Positions 53,099 through 64,000 of a DNA stretch of 64,000 nucleotides are shown piece by piece. Both the position numbers and the translations under genes were made by a program. The notes under the pieces were generated by a model. That model did not search any database. It saw only the letters and a program-made list of their open reading frames with translations, and was not told the origin of the DNA. The stretch is from assembly GCF_900176205.1 (NCBI RefSeq), contig NZ_LT859959.1, positions 4,237,001-4,301,000 on the forward strand, in the 5' to 3' direction. Within the stretch, counting starts at the first letter, position 1. Each line of letters starts with the position of its first letter. The DNA comes from Bradyrhizobium sp. ORS 285. Lineage in GTDB: Bacteria; Pseudomonadota; Alphaproteobacteria; Rhizobiales; Xanthobacteraceae.

Positions 53099-55474
53099 TT
53101 AGTAGCGGTTGAGCGCCTTGAGCACGCGCGCGGGCGTGATCGGAATGGCATTGATGGACGCGCCGAACGGCGTCAGCGCGTCATTGACGGCATTGAGCAC
53201 GCAGGCCGACGCCGCCGCCGTGCCGGCCTCGCCGCAGCCCTTCGCGCCGAGAATGGTATCAGACGTCGCCGTCTCCACATGGTCGATGACGATATCAGGC
53301 ATTTCCATCGCCATCGGCACGAGATAGTCGGCGAGGGAGCCGTTGAGCAACTGGCCGGTGTCACCGTAGCGGCATTCCTCGAACAGCGCAGCTCCCAGCC
53401 CCTGCACGACGCCGCCGCGCAGCTGCTCGTCCACCAGCATCGGGTTGATGATGCGGCCGCAATCCTCGACGACGTAGTGCTTCAGCAGCTTGACGAAGCC
53501 GGTGTCGACATCGACCTCGAGATAGCAGCCCTGGATGCCGTTGGTGAAGGCGAAGGGATAGCCCTGCGGGGCGAAGTGATGGCTGACGGTCAGTTGCGCC
53601 TGGGTGCCCGGCGGCAGCGTGTCGGAACGGAAATAGGCGATCCGCGCGATCTCGGCGACCACGAGGCGCGGCTGCTGCGTCGCCTTGCTCACGACCTGCC
53701 CGTCGACGATGTCGAGCGCCGACGGCTGCTCCTGCAGGATCAGTCCGGCGATCTCCAGAATGTTGGCCTTGAGCTGCCGCGCGGCCTGCAGCGCGGTCTC
53801 GCCGCCGATGCCGGCGCCGCGGCAGGCCCAGGTCGCGCCGCCATGCGGCGTCACCTCGGTGTCGCCGGTCAAGATCTTGACGTGCTCCTGGGCGAGGCCG
53901 AGCTGATCGGCAACGATCTGGCTGATGATCGCCTCGGTGCCCTGCCCCTGCTCGGTCACGGAGATCGCGCAACGCACCTCGCCGGATGGCGTCAGGCTGA
54001 GCGTCGCGCCGTCCTGCGAGGAGATCCGCGCGCCGCCGACGCCATAGAACGCCGGGCTCGGATTGGTGATCTCGACGAAGGTCGCAATGCCGATGCCGCG
54101 ATGAATGCCGCGCCGGCGCAGCTCAGCCTGCTCGGCGCGCAAGCGATCATAGTCCATGATCTCGCGCAGCCGCGCCAGGCACGCCTGATGCGACAGCGCC
54201 TCGAACCTGTAGCCAGTGGGCGATGCCGTCGGGTAGGCATCATCGGCGATCACGTTTGTCGCGCGGATCGCCAGCGGATCGAGGCCGACGCGTTCAGCCG
54301 CCAGATCCACCATCCGCTCGGTGACCGCGCAGGCGATGGGGTGGCCGACGGCGCGATACTGGCTGGTCTGTACCTTGTTCTGGAACACGACCTCCAGCGC
54401 CGCACGATACGACTTGAAGTCATAGGGCGCGCCGATCAGGCGGATGACCTGGTTGCCCTCGACCACGCTGGTGCGCGGATAGGTCGAGAAGGCGCCGATC
54501 GCGGTGGCGTCGTGGACATCCATGGCGAGGATCTTGCCCGCGGCATCCACCGCCATGCGCGCCCGCACCTGGTGATCACGCGCGTGGATATCGGAGGCAA
54601 AGGACTCGATGCGATCGGCGACATATTTCACCGGGCGCCCGAGCAGCATCGACAGCCCGACCACCGCCATGTCCTCGTGATAGACATGCAGCTTCATGCC
54701 GAAGGAGCCGCCGATATCTGGCGCGATCACGCGCACGCGCGCTTCCGGGATGCCGTAATGGCGGGAATAGAGATCCTGGAACTGATACGGCGTCTGCGTG
54801 GCGTGGTGCACCGTGAGCATGCCGCTGTCGGACTCGTAGTCCGCAATGATCGCGCGCGGCTCCAGCGTGACCGGCGTATGCCGGCCGAAGCTGAACGTCT
54901 CCTCGATCACATGCGCGGCCGAGCCAAAGGCGTCATCGACACCGCCGCTATCGAGCTGGGTGCGGAAGCAGATATTGGAGCTCGCGGCAGGATTGACCCG
55001 CTCGGCACCCGGCTGACGCGCGGCACCGAGATCGACCACCGCGGGCAGCTCCTCATAGTCGACCGAGATCAGCTCCAGCGCATCCTCGGCGAGCGCCCTG
55101 CTCTCGGCGACGACGGCGACGACCGCCTGGCCGGCCCAGACCACGCGCTCCAGCGGCAGCGGCCATTGCGGCTCGGAGGTCATGCCCTTGAAATGGTCGA
55201 GCGTCCCGGTCCACGGCGTGCAGATCTTGGCGAGGTCGGGACCGGTCGCGACCAGATGCACGCCGGCGAGCGTGCGCGCCGCCTCGGCGTCGATCCTGAT
55301 GATCCGCGCATGCGCATGAGGACTGCGCAGGAACGCCGCATGCAGCATGCGCGGCAGGCGGATGTCGGTGACATAACGCCCGCGTCCTGCGAGCAGCCGC
55401 TTGGCGTTCGGCCGTGGCACCGCGCGGCCGATATAGGAATTCGGACGATCCAGCGAGGTCAGCGGCGCACTCAT
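53099..55474 (-). CDS. Xanthine dehydrogenase-family molybdenum hydroxylase, large (Moco) subunit
   Basis: The 791-residue catalytic subunit binds molybdopterin cytosine dinucleotide or the like and hydroxylates a carbon centre of its substrate. Family blocks: GRGRYVTDIRLPRMLHAAFL at the start, APDIGGSFGMK, TSQYRAVGHPIACAVTERM, EQGQGTEAIISQIVAD, and the C-terminal KGCGEAG with the catalytic Glu. The CO dehydrogenase AYRCSFR loop is absent, so it is not CoxL proper. Its ATG overlaps the iron-sulfur subunit stop by four bases. Substrate unknown; a heterocycle or aldehyde is expected. Confidence 0.9.
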   Translation of the reverse strand: MSAPLTSLDRPNSYIGRAVPRPNAKRLLAGRGRYVTDIRLPRMLHAAFLRSPHAHARIIRIDAEAARTLAGVHLVATGPDLAKICTPWTGTLDHFKGMTSEPQWPLPLERVVWAGQAVVAVVAESRALAEDALELISVDYEELPAVVDLGAARQPGAERVNPAASSNICFRTQLDSGGVDDAFGSAAHVIEETFSFGRHTPVTLEPRAIIADYESDSGMLTVHHATQTPYQFQDLYSRHYGIPEARVRVIAPDIGGSFGMKLHVYHEDMAVVGLSMLLGRPVKYVADRIESFASDIHARDHQVRARMAVDAAGKILAMDVHDATAIGAFSTYPRTSVVEGNQVIRLIGAPYDFKSYRAALEVVFQNKVQTSQYRAVGHPIACAVTERMVDLAAERVGLDPLAIRATNVIADDAYPTASPTGYRFEALSHQACLARLREIMDYDRLRAEQAELRRRGIHRGIGIATFVEITNPSPAFYGVGGARISSQDGATLSLTPSGEVRCAISVTEQGQGTEAIISQIVADQLGLAQEHVKILTGDTEVTPHGGATWACRGAGIGGETALQAARQLKANILEIAGLILQEQPSALDIVDGQVVSKATQQPRLVVAEIARIAYFRSDTLPPGTQAQLTVSHHFAPQGYPFAFTNGIQGCYLEVDVDTGFVKLLKHYVVEDCGRIINPMLVDEQLRGGVVQGLGAALFEECRYGDTGQLLNGSLADYLVPMAMEMPDIVIDHVETATSDTILGAKGCGEAGTAAASACVLNAVNDALTPFGASINAIPITPARVLKALNRY

Positions 55475-56010
55475 GGCGACGAGCCCTCCCCAGGCTGCGA
55501 CGCCTTGGTCGCGCGTGCATCGGCCACCGCTTCGATGGCGTCGACGATCGCCTCGTAGCCGGTGCAACGGCAGAAATTGCCCGAGAGCGCATCGCGGATG
55601 ATCTCTCGATCCGGCGTCGCGTGGTGGGTCAACAATTCATGCGCGGTCATCAGCATGCCCGGGGTGCAGAAGCCGCATTGCAGGGCGTTGCGCCGGTGAA
55701 ACTCGGCTTGCAGGTCGGCAATCACGCCGCTTTCCGCGAGGCCTTCGATCGTGTCGATCCGCGCGCCATCCGCCTGCACGGCGAACATCAGGCAGGCATG
55801 GACGGCGCGGCCGTCGAGCTGGACCAGGCAGGCGCCGCAGGCGCCCATCTCGCAGCCGGCATGAGTGCCGGTCAGCTCGAGCTGATTGCGAAGACAGTCG
55901 ACCAGCGTGTCGCGCGGCGCGACATCGCACGTCGTCTTGCGGCCGTTGACAACCATGCGAACGCGCACGGCTTCGTCAGCGTCGTCGAGATCGACCGCCC
56001 TGCTGCTCAT
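55471..56010 (-). CDS. Molybdenum hydroxylase small subunit with two [2Fe-2S] clusters
   Basis: The 179-residue electron-transfer subunit has a plant-type ferredoxin domain with C-x4-C-x2-C in GCEMGACGAC and a later Cys in VHACLMF. The helical second cluster domain has LQCGFCTPGMLM and GNFCRCTGYEAI. All eight cluster Cys are present. It overlaps both neighbours by four bases, so the three subunits are tightly coupled. Confidence 0.93.
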   Translation of the reverse strand: MSSRAVDLDDADEAVRVRMVVNGRKTTCDVAPRDTLVDCLRNQLELTGTHAGCEMGACGACLVQLDGRAVHACLMFAVQADGARIDTIEGLAESGVIADLQAEFHRRNALQCGFCTPGMLMTAHELLTHHATPDREIIRDALSGNFCRCTGYEAIVDAIEAVADARATKASQPGEGSSP

Positions 56011-56867
56011 GCTGCCTCCCTGAGGCGACCAAGCAAACGGCCGAGCAGCACCCGCGCCAGATGCAGACGCATCGCGGCGGGCACGTCGTCGCTGTCGTCA
56101 GGCGCGAGATCACCACCCAGCGCCGCCTGGGCCGCAGAGATGCGGTCGGCGTCGAGGCGAGTTCCTGCGAGCGCGGCCTCCGCGGATTTCGCGCGCGTCG
56201 GCACATTGCCGACGGAGAACAAGGCGATCCGGATATCCGCGATCAGATCCTGTTCGACCGTCGCGATCATGCCACAGCCGACAAGCGCGTAATCCCCGCG
56301 GCGACGCGCCAGCTCGTCGAACGCAATGCGCTGATTGGCGCGCAACAACGGCACATGAACCGCAACCAGCAGCTCGCCGGGCGCGAGCGCCGTCTCGAAC
56401 AGATCGATGAAGAACTCATCGGCCCCGACACGCCGCCGGCCGGCAGGACCGGCGATCTCCATCTCGGCGCCGAGCGCCAGGACGACCGCTGGAAATTCCG
56501 AGGCGGGATCAGCGAGCGCAACGCTGCCGCCCAGCGTGCCGCGATTGCGGATGGCGGGATGCGCGACATATGGCGCGGCGGCCCGCAGCAGCGGCGCGAA
56601 TTCACCGATCAGCGGCTCGGTCAGCATCTGGCAATGCCGCGTCAGCGCGCCGATGCGCAGCCACTCGCCCTCGCGCCTCACGCCGCAGAGATCGTCGATG
56701 TGGTTGATGTCGATCAGCAGGCGCGGCGCCTGCAGACGCAGCGCCAGGGCTGGAACGAGGCTTTGTCCGCCGGCGATGAAGCGCGCCTCATCGCCGCTGC
56801 GCGCAGCAGCGTCGAGCGCCTCGTCGATCGTGCGTGCACGAAAATAGCTGAAAGCCCGCGCTTTCAT
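56007..56867 (-). CDS. Molybdenum hydroxylase medium (FAD) subunit
   Basis: The 286-residue subunit has the FAD-binding blocks ARFIAGGQSLVPALALRL (residues 28-45), AHPAIRNRGTLGGSVALADP and EFPAVVLALGAEM. It passes electrons from the iron-sulfur clusters to an acceptor. It is the first gene of the hydroxylase-Liv operon, and its start is 165 bases from the divergent tetR start. Confidence 0.92.
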   Translation of the reverse strand: MKARAFSYFRARTIDEALDAAARSGDEARFIAGGQSLVPALALRLQAPRLLIDINHIDDLCGVRREGEWLRIGALTRHCQMLTEPLIGEFAPLLRAAAPYVAHPAIRNRGTLGGSVALADPASEFPAVVLALGAEMEIAGPAGRRRVGADEFFIDLFETALAPGELLVAVHVPLLRANQRIAFDELARRRGDYALVGCGMIATVEQDLIADIRIALFSVGNVPTRAKSAEAALAGTRLDADRISAAQAALGGDLAPDDSDDVPAAMRLHLARVLLGRLLGRLREAA

Positions 56868-56909: not shown

Positions 56910-56985
56910 TTTGTGACCATCTGGTCTCAAAACAGTGCACGAGGTTGCCGCCGCGGTCAACCAGAAACGAACGATTGGTCACAAA
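56910..56985. promoter_or_regulatory. Inverted-repeat operators between the hydroxylase operon and tetR
   Basis: TTTGTGACCA at 56910-56919 faces TGGTCACAAA at 56976-56985 (66 bases centre to centre). The left arm overlaps a second palindrome, GACCA-TC-TGGTC, at 56915-56926. A GGTCAACC at about 56955 is another partial match. They lie in the 164-base divergent region, as expected for TetR control of both directions. Confidence 0.6.
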
Positions 56986-57031
56986 ACTGCTTTCGGCTAT
57001 CACATGCGCATTGCGGCAACCCAATCAGATC

Positions 57032-57775
57032 ATGGCCAAGCCCCCAAAGACAGCCAACGCGACCAAGACGGCAAACCGCGCCGCACGCGCGTCCAAACCG
57101 GACAACTTGCCGCAGCCCCGGCGCCGCAACATGCGGGCGGCCGACCGCGAGCGGCTGATCGTCGATGAAGCGATCCGCTTCTTCGCCGAGCGTGGCTTCG
57201 AAGGCCAGACCCGGGAGCTCGCCAAGCGCATGGGTATCGCGCATTCGGTGATCTACCGGCACTTTCCTTCCAAGGAAGCGCTGATCGAGCGGGTCTATCA
57301 GGAGGTCTATCTCAGCCGCTGGTCGCAGGACTGGGGCCCGCTGATCCGCGACCGCAGCCAGCCGCTGCAGACGCGCCTGACGAGCTTCTATCTCGACTAC
57401 GTCGCGCGCGTGTTCGAGTACAATTGGGTGCGGATCTTCGTGTTCTCGGGCATGAAGTCGTTCGGCATTACTGGACGCTACCTCGATCTCGTCCGCCAGG
57501 AGATCATCGAGCCGGCCGCGATCGAGCTGCGCCACGAATTGAAGCTGCCGGATGCCGCGACCTGCCCGCTCGAAAGCCGCGAGACTGAAATGTTCTGGGG
57601 CCTGCATGGCCGCATCTTCTATCTCGCGATCCGGAAATTCATCTACGAGACGCCGGTGCCGCCTGATCTCGAGCAGACCGTTCGCGACGCGATCCTGCTG
57701 TTCATGGACGGCGCGCGGGTAGCGCTTCCCCGCCTCCTTCAGGAGCGCAACTCACACACCGCACCCGGCGTCTAG
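57032..57775 (+). CDS. TetR/AcrR-family regulator of the hydroxylase-Liv operon
   Basis: The 247-residue protein has a basic unstructured N-terminus, then the TetR HTH: IVDEAIRFFAERGFEGQTRE, LAKRMGIAHSVIYRHFPSKE. A helical ligand domain follows. It is divergent from the FAD-subunit gene with inverted repeats between, so it probably represses the operon and itself. The ligand should be the imported substrate or its product. Confidence 0.88.
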   Translation: MAKPPKTANATKTANRAARASKPDNLPQPRRRNMRAADRERLIVDEAIRFFAERGFEGQTRELAKRMGIAHSVIYRHFPSKEALIERVYQEVYLSRWSQDWGPLIRDRSQPLQTRLTSFYLDYVARVFEYNWVRIFVFSGMKSFGITGRYLDLVRQEIIEPAAIELRHELKLPDAATCPLESRETEMFWGLHGRIFYLAIRKFIYETPVPPDLEQTVRDAILLFMDGARVALPRLLQERNSHTAPGV

Positions 57776-58890: not shown

Positions 58891-60336
58891 CTATCGCGTT
58901 GCCGGCACGAAGTGATCGTGCTTGCTCACCGCCGTGCCGGTCGCGGGATCCGTGATCCTGATCTCGATATCGACCGGCGCCGGCGGCAGGTCGGCCCCCT
59001 TGGCTTCGATCGACATGCGGATCTCGCGGGTCTGGTCCTGACCGACATCGATCATCATGCGGCCATCGGCCTCGCGCGTCTCACCGGCCACCGTCACCTT
59101 GGCATTGGGCAGGCCGACGACGTCGAGCACGAAGTCGCGCGCGCCGCGCTTGTTCAAGAGGCGAACTGTGTAGTCGTTGCGCACACCGCCATCCGAGAGC
59201 TGAACGAACAGCGGGTTGCGCTCATGCAGCACGTTGATGCCCATGGTGCCGCGCGTCGCCAGCGTATAGAGCATGATGCCGCCGACGATCGCGATGAAGC
59301 TCGCATAGATGATCGTACGCGGCCGGATGATCCGGTAGATCTCCGGCTTGCCTTCCCTGCGGCGCTGAACATTGATGTCGGTATCATAGCCGATCAGTCC
59401 CGTCGGACGACCGATCTGCGTCATCACGCTGTCGCAGGCGTCGATGCACAGGCTGCACTGGATGCAGCCGAGCTGGATGCCGTTGCGGATGTCGACGCCG
59501 GTCGGGCAGACATTGACGCATTGATGGCAGTCGACGCAGTCGCCGGCCGGGGCGCCCTGCAGCCGCGCCGCCTCCGCCTTCTTCACCGACATCCGCGGCT
59601 CGCCGCGGTCGCCCTTGTAGGTGACGTTGAGCGCCCATTCGTCGGTCAGCGCCGCCTGGATGCGCGGCCACGGGCACATGTAGATGCAGACCTGCTCGCG
59701 CGCGTGGCCAGCGAACATGTAGGTCGTGGCCGTCAGGATGCCGATCCAGAGATATGCGGTGAAGGGCGCCTGGAAGGTGGCGAGGTCCTTCACCAGGGTC
59801 GGCGCGTCGTCGAAATACAGCACCCAGGCGCCGCCGGTCCACCAGCCGATCATGATCCAGAGGAAGTGCTTGGTCGCGACCTGGCGGATATGGGTGAAGG
59901 TCCAGCCCTTCTTGTCGCTCAGCATGCGCTCGCGCCGGTCGCCCTCCACCCAGCGCTCGACGGCGTAGAACAGGTCGGTCCACACCGTCTGCGGACAGAG
60001 ATAACCGCACCACAGCCGGCCCGCGACCGCGTTCATCAGGAACAGGGCGACGGCTGCAATGATCAGCAGGCCGGTGAAATAATACACCTCCTGCGGCCAC
60101 AGCTCGATGAAGAAGAAGTAGAAGCGGCGATGCGGGAAATCGACCAGCACCGCCTGGTTCGGCATGCCGGGCCCGCGATCCCAGCGCACGAACGGCAGCA
60201 GATAGTAGATGCCGAGCGTGATGCAGAGGATCGTCCACTTGATGCGGCGGAAGCGGCCGCGCACGGCAGCCGGATAGACCTTGTCGCGCGCCTTGTAGAG
60301 CGGCCCGACAATATAGGTTTCGTCCGAGTCAGCCAT
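58891..60336 (-). CDS. ccoG: CcoG/FixG-like membrane iron-sulfur protein (orphan copy)
   Basis: The 481-residue protein has five or six membrane helices and two 4Fe-4S motifs, CVDCHQCVNVCPTG and CIQCSLCIDACD, plus CGYLCPQTVW and CIYMCPWPR in the membrane part. A C-terminal Ig-like domain (FVLDVVGLPNAKVTVAGE) completes the CcoG/FixG order. CcoG reduces copper during cbb3 oxidase assembly in other bacteria. No fixNOQP or fixHIS gene is near. Instead it is the last gene of the sqr operon, 44 bases after the DUF2892 gene, so it may move electrons or handle metal during sulfide stress. Confidence 0.85.
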   Translation of the reverse strand: MADSDETYIVGPLYKARDKVYPAAVRGRFRRIKWTILCITLGIYYLLPFVRWDRGPGMPNQAVLVDFPHRRFYFFFIELWPQEVYYFTGLLIIAAVALFLMNAVAGRLWCGYLCPQTVWTDLFYAVERWVEGDRRERMLSDKKGWTFTHIRQVATKHFLWIMIGWWTGGAWVLYFDDAPTLVKDLATFQAPFTAYLWIGILTATTYMFAGHAREQVCIYMCPWPRIQAALTDEWALNVTYKGDRGEPRMSVKKAEAARLQGAPAGDCVDCHQCVNVCPTGVDIRNGIQLGCIQCSLCIDACDSVMTQIGRPTGLIGYDTDINVQRRREGKPEIYRIIRPRTIIYASFIAIVGGIMLYTLATRGTMGINVLHERNPLFVQLSDGGVRNDYTVRLLNKRGARDFVLDVVGLPNAKVTVAGETREADGRMMIDVGQDQTREIRMSIEAKGADLPPAPVDIEIRITDPATGTAVSKHDHFVPATR

Positions 60337-60636: not shown

Positions 60637-61077
60637 TCATTGCCGCAGGCCGGACAGCGTCCAGGCAACGATTCGTTGCGAGTCCATCGCACCCGAGATC
60701 CGCTGCAGCTCCCGGCCCTTGTGCAGCAGCAGCAGGGTCGGGATTCCGGAGATGCCGAACTTCGCCGAGACCTCCGGCGCCTCGTCGGAGTTCAGCTTGA
60801 GAAGCTGCACGCGCGGCTCGAGCTCTTGAGCTGCGCGCGCGAACATCGGCGCCATCGCCCGGCATGGGCCGCACCAGGGCGCCCAGACATCGACCAGCAA
60901 CGGCAGGTCGCTATTCGCGAGGTGGCGGGCGAAGGCGGCCTGGTCGACCTCGATCGGATGGCCGGAAAACAGCGGCGCGTGGCATTTGCCGCATTTGCCC
61001 TGGCCCGGCGCGCGGCCCGCCGGGAGGCGATTGATCTGCCCGCACTGGCCGCACACCAGTTGAAAGCTCTCGCTCAT
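60637..61077 (-). CDS. trxC: Thioredoxin 2 (zinc-finger thioredoxin)
   Basis: The 146-residue protein has an N-terminal zinc finger, CGQC near residue 9 and CGKC near residue 29, then a thioredoxin fold with the active site WAPWCGPCRAMAP and the cis-Pro loop GISGIPTLLL. Thioredoxin 2 reduces disulfides and persulfides and is often oxidative-stress-induced. Its ATG overlaps the sqr stop codon. Here it could reduce persulfide on the SQR product or on the regulator. Confidence 0.93.
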   Translation of the reverse strand: MSESFQLVCGQCGQINRLPAGRAPGQGKCGKCHAPLFSGHPIEVDQAAFARHLANSDLPLLVDVWAPWCGPCRAMAPMFARAAQELEPRVQLLKLNSDEAPEVSAKFGISGIPTLLLLHKGRELQRISGAMDSQRIVAWTLSGLRQ

Positions 61078-62360
61078 GTGCCCGTCCTGACTTCCTTGAT
61101 CTTTCCAATGTTGAGCCGGTCGAGCAGGAACTTCTCGTAGAACGGCTCAGGCGTGCCGCGTCTCATCTTGCGCAGGAAATACTTCTCGAAGGCGACCTTG
61201 GCGTAATGCACCCACTCCCCCTTCGACGACCAGTTGACATTGCGCGGCGGGATCTGCGGCTGCGCCAGGAAGGCGACGCCGGAATCGCCGAAATCGGCGA
61301 GGCAGATCGCATTCCAGGTCGGCTGCGACTTCGGCGCCTCGCCACGCAGCAGCGCGCCGATGTTCAGCGCGGTGGCCGTGACCATCGACTCGATCATGAA
61401 GCCGGTCTTGGGCACGCCGACCGGCACCGGCGTCGGCCCGATCGGCGGGATCGCGACGCACACGCCGATGGCGAACACGTTGGGAAAAGCCGGATTGCGC
61501 TGATGCTTGTCGACGATGACGAAGCCGCGCGGGTTGGTCAGCTTGTCGATGCCCCTCACCGCGCCGACGCCGCGAAACGCCGGCAGCATCATCGAATAGG
61601 CGAACGGCAGCTCGTGCGTCTTGCGCACCGAGCCGTCGTCGGCCACCTCCTCCACGACCATCCGCCCGTCCTCGACCTTGGTGACGCGCGCGCTCGTGAT
61701 CCACTTGATGTGCTTTTCGCGCATCTCGCTTTCCAGCAGCCCCTTGGTGTCCCCGACGCCGTCGAGTCCGAGGTGGCCGATATAGGGCTCGGAGGTGACG
61801 AAGGTCATCGGCACCTGGTCGCGCATCTTGCGGCGGCGCAGCTCGGTCTCGAGGATGAAGAGGAATTCGTAGGCCGGCCCGAAGCACGACGCGCCCTGCA
61901 CCGCGCCGACGATCACCGGACCCGGCTTCTCGGCGAGCTTGTCGAAGGCCGCCTTGGCATGCGCCGCGTGATCCACATGACAGACCGACTGGGTATGGCC
62001 GTCCGGGCCGAGCCCCGGGATCTCGTCGAAGGCGAGTTCGGGACCGGTGGCGACGACGAGATAGTCGTAAGGAACCATGGTGCCGTCGGTCAGCTCGACC
62101 TGGCTGTCGTCCGGATGCACCCGCTTGGCGCCCTGCGTCAGCAGCCGGATGCCCTTGCGCTGCATGACGTCGACGAGATCGATCTCGATGTCGTCGCGCT
62201 TGCGCCAACCCACGGCCACCCAGGGGTTGGACGGCACGAAATGATACGAGGACCCTTGCGAGATGACGGTCACGCGATCCTCCTTTCGCATCTGGGGCAG
62301 CAATTCATAGGCCATCAGGGAGCCGCTCAGCCCCGCTCCGATCACGACAACGTCCGCCAT
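61074..62360 (-). CDS. sqr: Sulfide:quinone reductase
   Basis: The 428-residue FAD enzyme oxidises sulfide to polysulfide or persulfide and passes electrons to quinone at the membrane. It starts with the FAD motif VVVIGAGLSGSLMAYEL. Three Cys match the catalytic ones of the Acidithiobacillus enzyme (128, 160, 356): Cys127 in QSVCHVDHA, Cys159 in GASCFGPAYEF and Cys353 in NAICLADFG. The quinone-site region GVPKTGFMIESMV is present. GGAGG precedes the ATG at 62360. It is the first gene of the minus-strand operon and is divergent from the ArsR regulator. Confidence 0.92.
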   Translation of the reverse strand: MADVVVIGAGLSGSLMAYELLPQMRKEDRVTVISQGSSYHFVPSNPWVAVGWRKRDDIEIDLVDVMQRKGIRLLTQGAKRVHPDDSQVELTDGTMVPYDYLVVATGPELAFDEIPGLGPDGHTQSVCHVDHAAHAKAAFDKLAEKPGPVIVGAVQGASCFGPAYEFLFILETELRRRKMRDQVPMTFVTSEPYIGHLGLDGVGDTKGLLESEMREKHIKWITSARVTKVEDGRMVVEEVADDGSVRKTHELPFAYSMMLPAFRGVGAVRGIDKLTNPRGFVIVDKHQRNPAFPNVFAIGVCVAIPPIGPTPVPVGVPKTGFMIESMVTATALNIGALLRGEAPKSQPTWNAICLADFGDSGVAFLAQPQIPPRNVNWSSKGEWVHYAKVAFEKYFLRKMRRGTPEPFYEKFLLDRLNIGKIKEVRTGT

Positions 62361-62421
62361 TGGGTCCTCCATCGCCTTGCTTCGTTCTTGTTTTGCTCAG
62401 CCCCGACCTTCCGGGCCGGCC

Positions 62422-62455
62422 TTGACTATATATTTGTATATCCGTATATACGCAA
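62422..62455. promoter_or_regulatory. Interlocked divergent promoters of sqr and its regulator
   Basis: Plus strand: TTGACT (62422-62427), 17 bases, TATATA (62445-62450), seven bases before the regulator ATG. Minus strand: TTGCGT (complement of 62450-62455), 17 bases, TATATA (complement of 62427-62432) toward sqr. Each -10 abuts the other's -35, so a protein on the shared 17-base centre would block both. The centre has ATATAC-type repeats that could be the ArsR operator. Confidence 0.75.
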
Positions 62456-62457
62456 CT

Positions 62458-62787
62458 ATGAAATTTGATGCTGACATCATGGAAGTGGCCGCTGACAAAG
62501 CCAGCGATCTCCTGAAGGCGCTGTCGAACCGCCACCGGCTCCTGATCATCTGCCAGCTGGTCGACGGTGAGCGCTCGGTCGGCGAGTTGGCTGCGTCCCT
62601 GGGCCTGCGCGACTCGACCGTCTCCCAGCACCTCGCACTGCTGCGCAAGGACGGCCTGGTCACTGCCCGGCGCGACGGACAGACGATCTACTACTCGATC
62701 AGCAGCGAGCCGGCGCGCGAGGTGCTGAAGACGCTCTATCAGGTCTATTGCGCGACGCCGCCGCCGGAACCCGGGTCGAGACTATGA
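62458..62787 (+). CDS. ArsR-family persulfide sensor, SqrR/BigR type
   Basis: The 109-residue winged-helix repressor has LLKALSNRHRLLIICQLVDG, the recognition region LGLRDSTVSQHLALLRKDGL and the wing TARRDGQTIYYSI. Cys32 and Cys98 are 66 residues apart, the same spacing as the redox pair of SqrR (41, 107) and BigR (42, 108), which form a tetrasulfide bridge with persulfide and release DNA. No metal-binding ArsR motif (CxC) is visible. It has no ribosome binding site and its ATG is at the predicted transcription start, so translation is probably leaderless. It is divergent from sqr. Confidence 0.88.
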   Translation: MKFDADIMEVAADKASDLLKALSNRHRLLIICQLVDGERSVGELAASLGLRDSTVSQHLALLRKDGLVTARRDGQTIYYSISSEPAREVLKTLYQVYCATPPPEPGSRL

Positions 62788-62897
62788 CCGTCGAACGCCT
62801 ACGAGTTGAGCAGCATCAAGTGGGAACCCGCCGCCCAGTGGGATGGATGGACTGCCCGTTTGGCTCGACCACTCGAATTGATTCAAAAGAGAACAGG

Positions 62898-63896
62898 ATG
62901 AAGCCAATGCGCAGATTATCGCTCCTGAGCTTGATCGCTATGATGAGCTGGCAGTCGGTAGCAGCCAATGCCGAGACGCTCACGGTGGCTCCGCGCCAGG
63001 TGGCCGACGAGAAGGCGGTGTTCGCGACCGTGGAAAGCGTCAGCGTCGTCCCCGCGCGCGGCCGCATCGGCGGCACCGTTGCTCAGCTGTCCGTGCGCGA
63101 GGGCGATCCCGTCAAGCGCGGCCAGCCGATCGCTCTGATCGGCGACGAGAAGCTCGCGCTGCAACTCAAGTCGCTCGACGCCCAGATCGAGGCGTTGCAG
63201 GCGCAAGCCAACCAGGCGCAGATCGACTTCACCCGCACCGAGGGCCTCGTCGAGCGCGGCACCCTGCCCCGGGTCAAGCTCGACGAGACGCGCACTGCGC
63301 TGAACGTCGCCGAGAACGGCCTGCGGGCGAAGACGGCCGAGCGCGCCGTGGTCAATCAGCAGATGAGCGAAGGCCAGGTGCTGGCGCCCGACGACGGCCG
63401 CGTGCTGAAGAAGCTCGTCGTCGTCGGATCCGTGGTGCTTCCCGGCGACCCTGTGGTCACCGTGGCGCAGCAGAACTTCAAGCTGCGGCTGCGCGTGCCC
63501 GAGCGCCATGCGCTATTCTTGAAAGCCGGCGACAAGATCCGCATCGATGGCGCCGAGTTCGGCGACAGCGGCGACAAGTTTGGCGTGATCGACCTCGTCT
63601 ATCCGCAGATCGAGGAAGGCCGCGTCGTCGCCGACGCCATCGTCCCAGGCCTCGGCCAGTACTACGTCGGCGACCGGCTGCGGGTCTGGATCTCCGGCGG
63701 CCAGCGCGACGCCTATGTCATTCCCTCGCGCTACGTCACCACCCGCTTCGGCATCGACTACGTGAAGCTGCAGCAGGGCGCGCAGCAGGTGAGCGTCCCG
63801 GTGCAGCGCGGCCGCGCGCTGCCCAGCGCCGATCTCCCCGATGGCCTTGAAATCCTGTCCGGCCTGCGCGCCGGCGACCAATTGGTGCAGCCGTGA
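62898..63896 (+). CDS. RND efflux periplasmic adaptor (membrane fusion protein)
   Basis: The 332-residue adaptor has a signal peptide (LLSLIAMMSWQSVAANAE). It also has a biotinyl-lipoyl-like domain split by an alpha hairpin (SVREGDPVKRGQPIALIGDE, then the coiled segment LKSLDAQIEALQAQANQAQ), and a beta-barrel domain (LRLRVPERHALFLKAGDKIR). It bridges an inner-membrane pump and an outer-membrane channel. Its stop overlaps the GTG of the RND gene. It lies 110 bases after the regulator on the same strand and may share its control. Confidence 0.87.
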   Translation: MKPMRRLSLLSLIAMMSWQSVAANAETLTVAPRQVADEKAVFATVESVSVVPARGRIGGTVAQLSVREGDPVKRGQPIALIGDEKLALQLKSLDAQIEALQAQANQAQIDFTRTEGLVERGTLPRVKLDETRTALNVAENGLRAKTAERAVVNQQMSEGQVLAPDDGRVLKKLVVVGSVVLPGDPVVTVAQQNFKLRLRVPERHALFLKAGDKIRIDGAEFGDSGDKFGVIDLVYPQIEEGRVVADAIVPGLGQYYVGDRLRVWISGGQRDAYVIPSRYVTTRFGIDYVKLQQGAQQVSVPVQRGRALPSADLPDGLEILSGLRAGDQLVQP

Positions 63897-64000
63897 AACT
63901 TGGACTCTCGGGCAAGCTGACCCAGGCGACCATCGCCTCGCCGCTGACGCCGCTGTTCCTGCTCGCTTCCCTCGTCGTCGGCCTCATCGCCGTGGTCGTG
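63893..64000 (+). CDS. RND family efflux pump, N-terminus only (cut by window edge)
   Basis: Thirty-six codons are visible from the GTG at 63893. The product begins (M)KLGLSGKLTQATIASPLTPL and continues into a hydrophobic helix (FLLASLVVGLIAVVV), the first helix of an AcrB-like pump. The start overlaps the adaptor stop by four bases. The xLTxxFIxxPLTP pattern is usual for RND pumps of the heavy-metal or small-molecule type; substrate unknown. Confidence 0.8.
   Translation, partial: MKLGLSGKLTQATIASPLTPLFLLASLVVGLIAVVV

Follow-up and report, generated by a model that had tools for sequence, protein, structure and literature searches.

Several ArsR-type repressors with a conserved cysteine pair have been described as sensors of reactive sulfur. 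In Rhodobacter capsulatus, SqrR reacts with glutathione persulfide (GSSH) to form a tetrasulfide between its two cysteines, and reportedly resists oxidation by peroxides (PMC9995734). Cys-to-Ser variants of SqrR are reported to bind DNA without responding to persulfide. BigR of Xylella fastidiosa recognises the -10 promoter region and releases DNA with H2S or polysulfide, while in vitro its cysteine pair also undergoes sulfenylation and glutathionylation (PMC5823870). SoxR is responsive to polysulfide, and its Cys50Ser variant reportedly loses binding (PMC10451225). A 2025 neighbourhood survey lists sqr and resistance-nodulation-division (RND) efflux pumps among the apparent targets of such regulators (PMC12423496), and sulfane sulfur controls the multidrug pump mexAB-oprM through another family, MexR (PMC11211675). 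Here we describe a regulator of this kind in a window of 64,000 nucleotides from Bradyrhizobium sp. ORS 285 (contig NZ_LT859959.1, positions 4,237,001 to 4,301,000), located between a divergent sulfide:quinone oxidoreductase (SQR) gene and an RND efflux operon (Table 1). The regulator is very probably a repressor of both divergent operons that is released by reactive sulfur. The kind of sensor is already known; the additions are the locus, a candidate operator and a measured linkage to RND pumps.

On sequence and predicted structure, the regulator belongs to the SqrR/BigR/YgaV/HlyU/SoxR dithiol-sensor group of the ArsR superfamily. Translation of 62458-62787 confirmed the original prediction that Cys32 and Cys98 are its only cysteines and stand 66 residues apart. 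In structure comparisons the predicted model showed an ArsR winged-helix fold close to SqrR, BigR and HlyU, with HlyU as the top match by both score and Z. Residues 9-100 aligned without gaps on 18-109 of SqrR (6o8l) and residues 3-100 on 13-110 of BigR (3pqj), so that the pair falls on SqrR 41/107 and BigR 42/108, as had been proposed. The columns of the sequence alignment place it on the same sensor positions in SqrR and BigR, and also in YgaV, where the spacing is 67. The pair and its spacing are a property of the whole dithiol group and are not limited to SqrR and BigR. An upstream TTG start at 62377, which would give 136 residues and a third cysteine, was rejected as unlikely because the conserved non-coding footprint described below runs up to the ATG at 62458 and stops there.

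All 30 orthologues examined in the genus (own copy counted) have both cysteines, as do 76 of the 77 regulators adjoining a related RND permease in the best 80 loci and 12 of 13 class-level neighbour regulators; the three sets may overlap in genomes. The exception among the 77 (L127) has a called start that leaves two residues, and the class-level exception (L081) carries no second cysteine. Retention across these sets argues that the pair is not there by chance. Furthermore, NolR (4omy) shares the fold and 46% identity yet has neither sensor cysteine, and the fold by itself thus does not impose the pair.

The regulator resembles SqrR (6o8k-6o8o) in its ungapped cysteine pair, in 49.5% identity over the aligned core and in a tyrosine four residues ahead of the second cysteine, whereas SqrR carries an additional, non-conserved Cys9 and the window regulator precedes an RND operon. 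Additionally, sqr is a target of SqrR (PMC9995734) and lies divergently here. BigR (3pqj/3pqk) has the same ungapped pair at 40% identity. The 3pqj sequence has a tyrosine four residues before the second BigR cysteine, where PMC5823870 gives Trp104, and the numbering or the text may be off. HlyU (3jth, 4k2e) and YgaV (3cuo) share the fold and cysteine positions but lie on another tree branch, and ygaV adjoins ygaP. SoxR and sHdrR of Hyphomicrobium denitrificans likewise belong to the ArsR group, have a conserved cysteine pair and respond to sulfane sulfur; however, they govern sox and shdr genes, whereas the window regulator stands at sqr and the RND operon and the sox-linked paralogue lies elsewhere.

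The region upstream of the regulator contains a conserved footprint, cTTGACtaTATATTCgnAnnTnCGTATATACGCAAgTATG, for which 60 of 77 upstream regions (window counted) gave a gapless alignment; the remaining 17 were out of register and were left out of the alignment. By eye, it was kept in 5 of 13 class-level regulators (L066, L067, L068, L070 and L072). Dyads of 22, 16 and 12 bp occur within it, and these were reached by 1, 0 and 3 of 300 column shuffles, respectively. The consensus half-sites of the 22-bp dyad, ATTC-N8-GTAT, are one base off the SqrR site ATTC-N8-GAAT (PMC9774250), with the same N8 spacing, and the window copy, ATTT-N8-GTAT, is two bases off. The position of the dyad also matches the -10 region at which BigR is reported to bind (PMC5823870). 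With up to three mismatches, the full operator motif was found at one place in the genome, where it matched on both strands; a wide regulon sharing the full operator was not seen in this genome scan. A shorter motif was dropped as uninformative, its reversed control also matching once per strand.

The same footprint holds CTTGAC-N17-GTATAT, which differs by one base from the Sinorhizobium meliloti sigma-70 query pattern CTTGAC(N17)CTATAT (PMC2573895). A strict E. coli-type scan, which requires the second hexamer to end in T, returned no promoter, and we propose the promoter from its conservation and the S. meliloti pattern. Only 8 bases separate GTATAT from the ATG, so transcription probably starts at or next to the ATG and the message would be leaderless. 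A literature search on leaderless SqrR returned nothing.

The mechanism carried over from SqrR, BigR and SoxR would run as follows. The regulator would act as a winged-helix repressor, presumably a dimer, whose reduced dithiol form occupies the promoter-overlapping dyad and blocks transcription in both directions: that of sqr-trx, and that of the regulator gene itself together with the genes for the RND adaptor, the permease and the AhpD-like protein. During sulfide oxidation, with SQR among the sources, organic persulfides or polysulfides would accumulate; sulfur would bridge Cys98 and Cys32 inside each subunit, and the repressor would come off its site, allowing production of SQR, thioredoxin and the pump. 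This proposal builds on the model fold, the cysteine positions and their conservation, the gene order, the footprint and the single genomic place of the full operator motif. The divergent gene was correctly named in the original prediction: SQR matches the Acidithiobacillus ferrooxidans enzyme (3sz0) at E 1.2e-147 over residues 6-430, at full length and with aligned cysteines. The start of trx overlaps the end of sqr, and the two are therefore probably on one transcript.

Table 1. Features of the regulator locus; positions are those of the window unless prefixed L041.
Feature	Position	Strand	Remarks
CcoG (cytochrome oxidase assembly)	58891..60336	-	Beyond trx
TrxC-like thioredoxin	60637..61077	-	Start overlaps sqr end; TrxC model cut-off passed
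Sulfide:quinone oxidoreductase (SQR), divergent	61074..62372	-	Cys163 and Cys357 align with cysteines of the A. ferrooxidans enzyme
Conserved promoter/operator footprint	62421..62460	.	CTTGAC 62421-62426, 17 nt, GTATAT 62444-62449, 8 nt, ATG
22-bp imperfect dyad TATATTTGTATATCCGTATATA, consensus TATATTCgnAnnTnCGTATATA	62429..62450	.	Candidate operator resembling ATTC-N8-GAAT
16-bp dyad ATCCGTATATACGCAA	62440..62455	.	Over -10 region; overlaps 22-bp dyad
ArsR-type dithiol regulator, SqrR/BigR/YgaV/HlyU group	62458..62787	+	109 aa; Cys32 and Cys98
RND periplasmic adaptor	62898..63896	+	First pump gene after regulator
RND permease	63893..64000	+	1075 aa; continues past window end (L041:3894-7121)
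AhpD-domain protein	L041:7131-7487		After permease

The regulator has close relatives in named Bradyrhizobium, in line with the bradyrhizobial background first suggested from the sequence; the original prediction had overlooked the operator and, downstream, the conserved RND operon. Of 98 genus genomes searched, 32 (own counted) have an orthologue of at least 71% identity; two of these orthologues, at 71% (G023 and G033), came without loci and stand outside the locus counts. In the 29 genus loci besides our own, the RND adaptor came next in all 29 and sqr was divergent in 26; one of the remaining loci begins at a contig end, and in the other two trx takes that place. Named genomes were also scanned with the permease; of at least 595 stretches the best 80 were kept, and the counts consequently lean toward close relatives. 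A dithiol regulator was located near 77 of these 80 permeases. Among the three loci without it, fewer than 800 bases of sequence precede the permease in L114 and L137, but not in L155.

Alternatively, the regulator could govern sqr-trx and itself only, with the RND operon a mere neighbour that has its own promoter and signal. The 110 bp between regulator and adaptor (62788-62897) are consistent with such an arrangement, and so is a linkage that is not universal: at 6 of 20 class-level pumps the regions read contained no regulator and no SQR, and a scan of 10 ORFs near these pumps gave varied products, including a Na/H exchanger and an FAD oxidase. We nevertheless consider this rather unlikely. 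The regulator lies on the pump strand in 71 of the 77 loci, and regulator and pump occur together where sqr was not found in the stretch (Rhodopseudomonas L111, L113, L115, L117 and L118). In a class-wide draw, the adaptor was detected at E up to 1e-20 in 22 of 240 genomes (own counted), and 20 of the 21 others were used, G264 with its 28% identical adaptor being dropped. Within 1.5 kb of these 20 adaptors, a regulator was present in 9, sqr in 5 and either in 13, against 0 of 29 AcrA-type adaptors taken as controls from those 240 genomes (Fisher p 3e-7, with lineages that are non-independent). The controls were the 29 best-scoring loci, 81 of the 240 genomes having matched. In wider regions of 6.6 to 17 kb, the 20 loci showed a regulator in 12, sqr in 5 and either in 14.

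A second alternative is a general thiol-redox switch, in which the pair answers mainly peroxide or disulfide stress by forming a disulfide and sulfide is one inducer of several. HlyU as the top structural match speaks for it, as do the AhpD-domain and thioredoxin genes within the operons and the openness of both BigR cysteines to sulfenylation and glutathionylation in vitro (PMC5823870). For the last reason, the claim that the pair marks a persulfide-responsive switch stands for membership in the sensor group, but the pair alone does not prove selectivity for persulfide. Against a general redox role, SqrR has the same pair and is reported as unresponsive to peroxide (PMC9995734). Near the best 80 permeases, moreover, sqr (at least 50% identity) occurs at 50 loci and is commoner than thioredoxin (34) or an AhpD-like gene (30). 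Release by reactive sulfur remains the favoured reading, and a general redox switch appears improbable. An ArsR/SmtB sensor of metals or metalloids governing an RND metal-efflux pump is very improbable, and its canonical form was rejected in agreement with the original prediction: the regulator has just two cysteines, both at sulfur-sensor positions, and helix 84-97 lacks Asp and His. It thus shows no sign of a known metal site, for which the ligands are cysteines of helix alpha3/alpha4 or Asp/His of alpha5. The permease scores 263.7, below the CusA/CzcA heavy-metal family cut-off of 701.45, and the divergent gene encodes SQR.

The permease shares 22% identity with AcrB and keeps its D407, D408, R971 and T978, with R replacing K940, in 11 of 11 sequences compared; these positions make up the proton relay. 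Its N-terminal part contained no cysteine in 38,414 residues from the 80 loci, compared with 8 in 13,790 residues from 29 AcrB-type controls, and the whole matched permease had 0 to 2 cysteines per locus across the 80 loci. This low content is no more than a weak hint.

A second type of sensor was observed at the same place in six loci from Maricaulis, Hyphobacterium and others (L148, L149 and L160-L163). Here the regulator has sqr to one side and the adaptor to the other, and its strand is not that of the pump. Those of these regulators that were placed on trees group with YgaV (support 97/85 for four rows and 95/85 for two), a grouping made unsure by long branches, which were flagged in the trees for YgaV and the Maricaulis rows among others. 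Their upstream region shows, by eye, a different dyad, TTGACA...TGTCAA. If the grouping with YgaV is right, the pump has been placed under a dithiol-type sensor twice. The conserved set of sensor, SQR, thioredoxin and cysteine-poor RND pump might form a dedicated reactive-sulfur efflux module, whose pump would clear persulfides, polysulfides or sulfur-damaged thiols out of the membrane or periplasm, and which in Maricaulis-like bacteria would have been put under sulfur control a second time by a YgaV-type sensor with another operator; we offer this only tentatively and regard it as doubtful. Few transporters are known for getting rid of reactive sulfur. The regulator extends the known sensor group in bradyrhizobia, but the more useful point is that a sensor tied to one RND pump subfamily provides a testable candidate for reactive-sulfur disposal, with its genes and candidate operator set out here.

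Within the dithiol group, orthology of the regulator to SqrR or BigR is not shown by the trees or the NCBIfam cut-off. The regulator scored 88.8 bits against the cut-off of 155 for NF040642, so that BigR orthology is not established and BigR in the NCBIfam sense was rejected. The 7.8 Mb genome, a single contig, encodes two further close paralogues, both with both cysteines. One (L042) adjoins a BLH-type dioxygenase, and the other (L043) belongs to a sox cluster that includes SoxX and SoxB. In two trees, built on 114 and 105 columns and weak at deep nodes, SqrR pairs with the sox-linked paralogue of this genome (support 100/85 and 100/98), while the branches that place the window regulator among RND-linked ones are poorly resolved. 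In topology tests, a clade of the window regulator with SqrR was not rejected (p-AU 0.118), nor was a single RND-linked clade of 26 rows (p-AU 0.563), a value that does not demonstrate such a clade. Since each of the three paralogues stands by a different sulfur enzyme (SQR, the BLH-type dioxygenase and Sox), the genome offers a case for how similar dithiol sensors avoid cross-talk.

For the dioxygenase by the L042 paralogue (L042:5468-6421, minus strand), the match to the Blh profile (423 positions) is confined to positions 138-423, at 392.5 bits and below the cut-off of 625; the enzyme probably has no sulfurtransferase part.

On the sqr-trx side, it is uncertain whether CcoG is part of the regulon; a link to sulfide poisoning of oxidases is possible. 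A ccoG match was observed near 24 of the 80 best RND loci, mostly in bradyrhizobia. Further away, molybdenum hydroxylase genes of the xanthine/CO/aldehyde dehydrogenase type (53099-56867, minus strand) include large and iron-sulfur subunits by profile match and a third ORF at 56007-56867, and a TetR-type regulator (56945-57775, plus strand) lies divergently from them.
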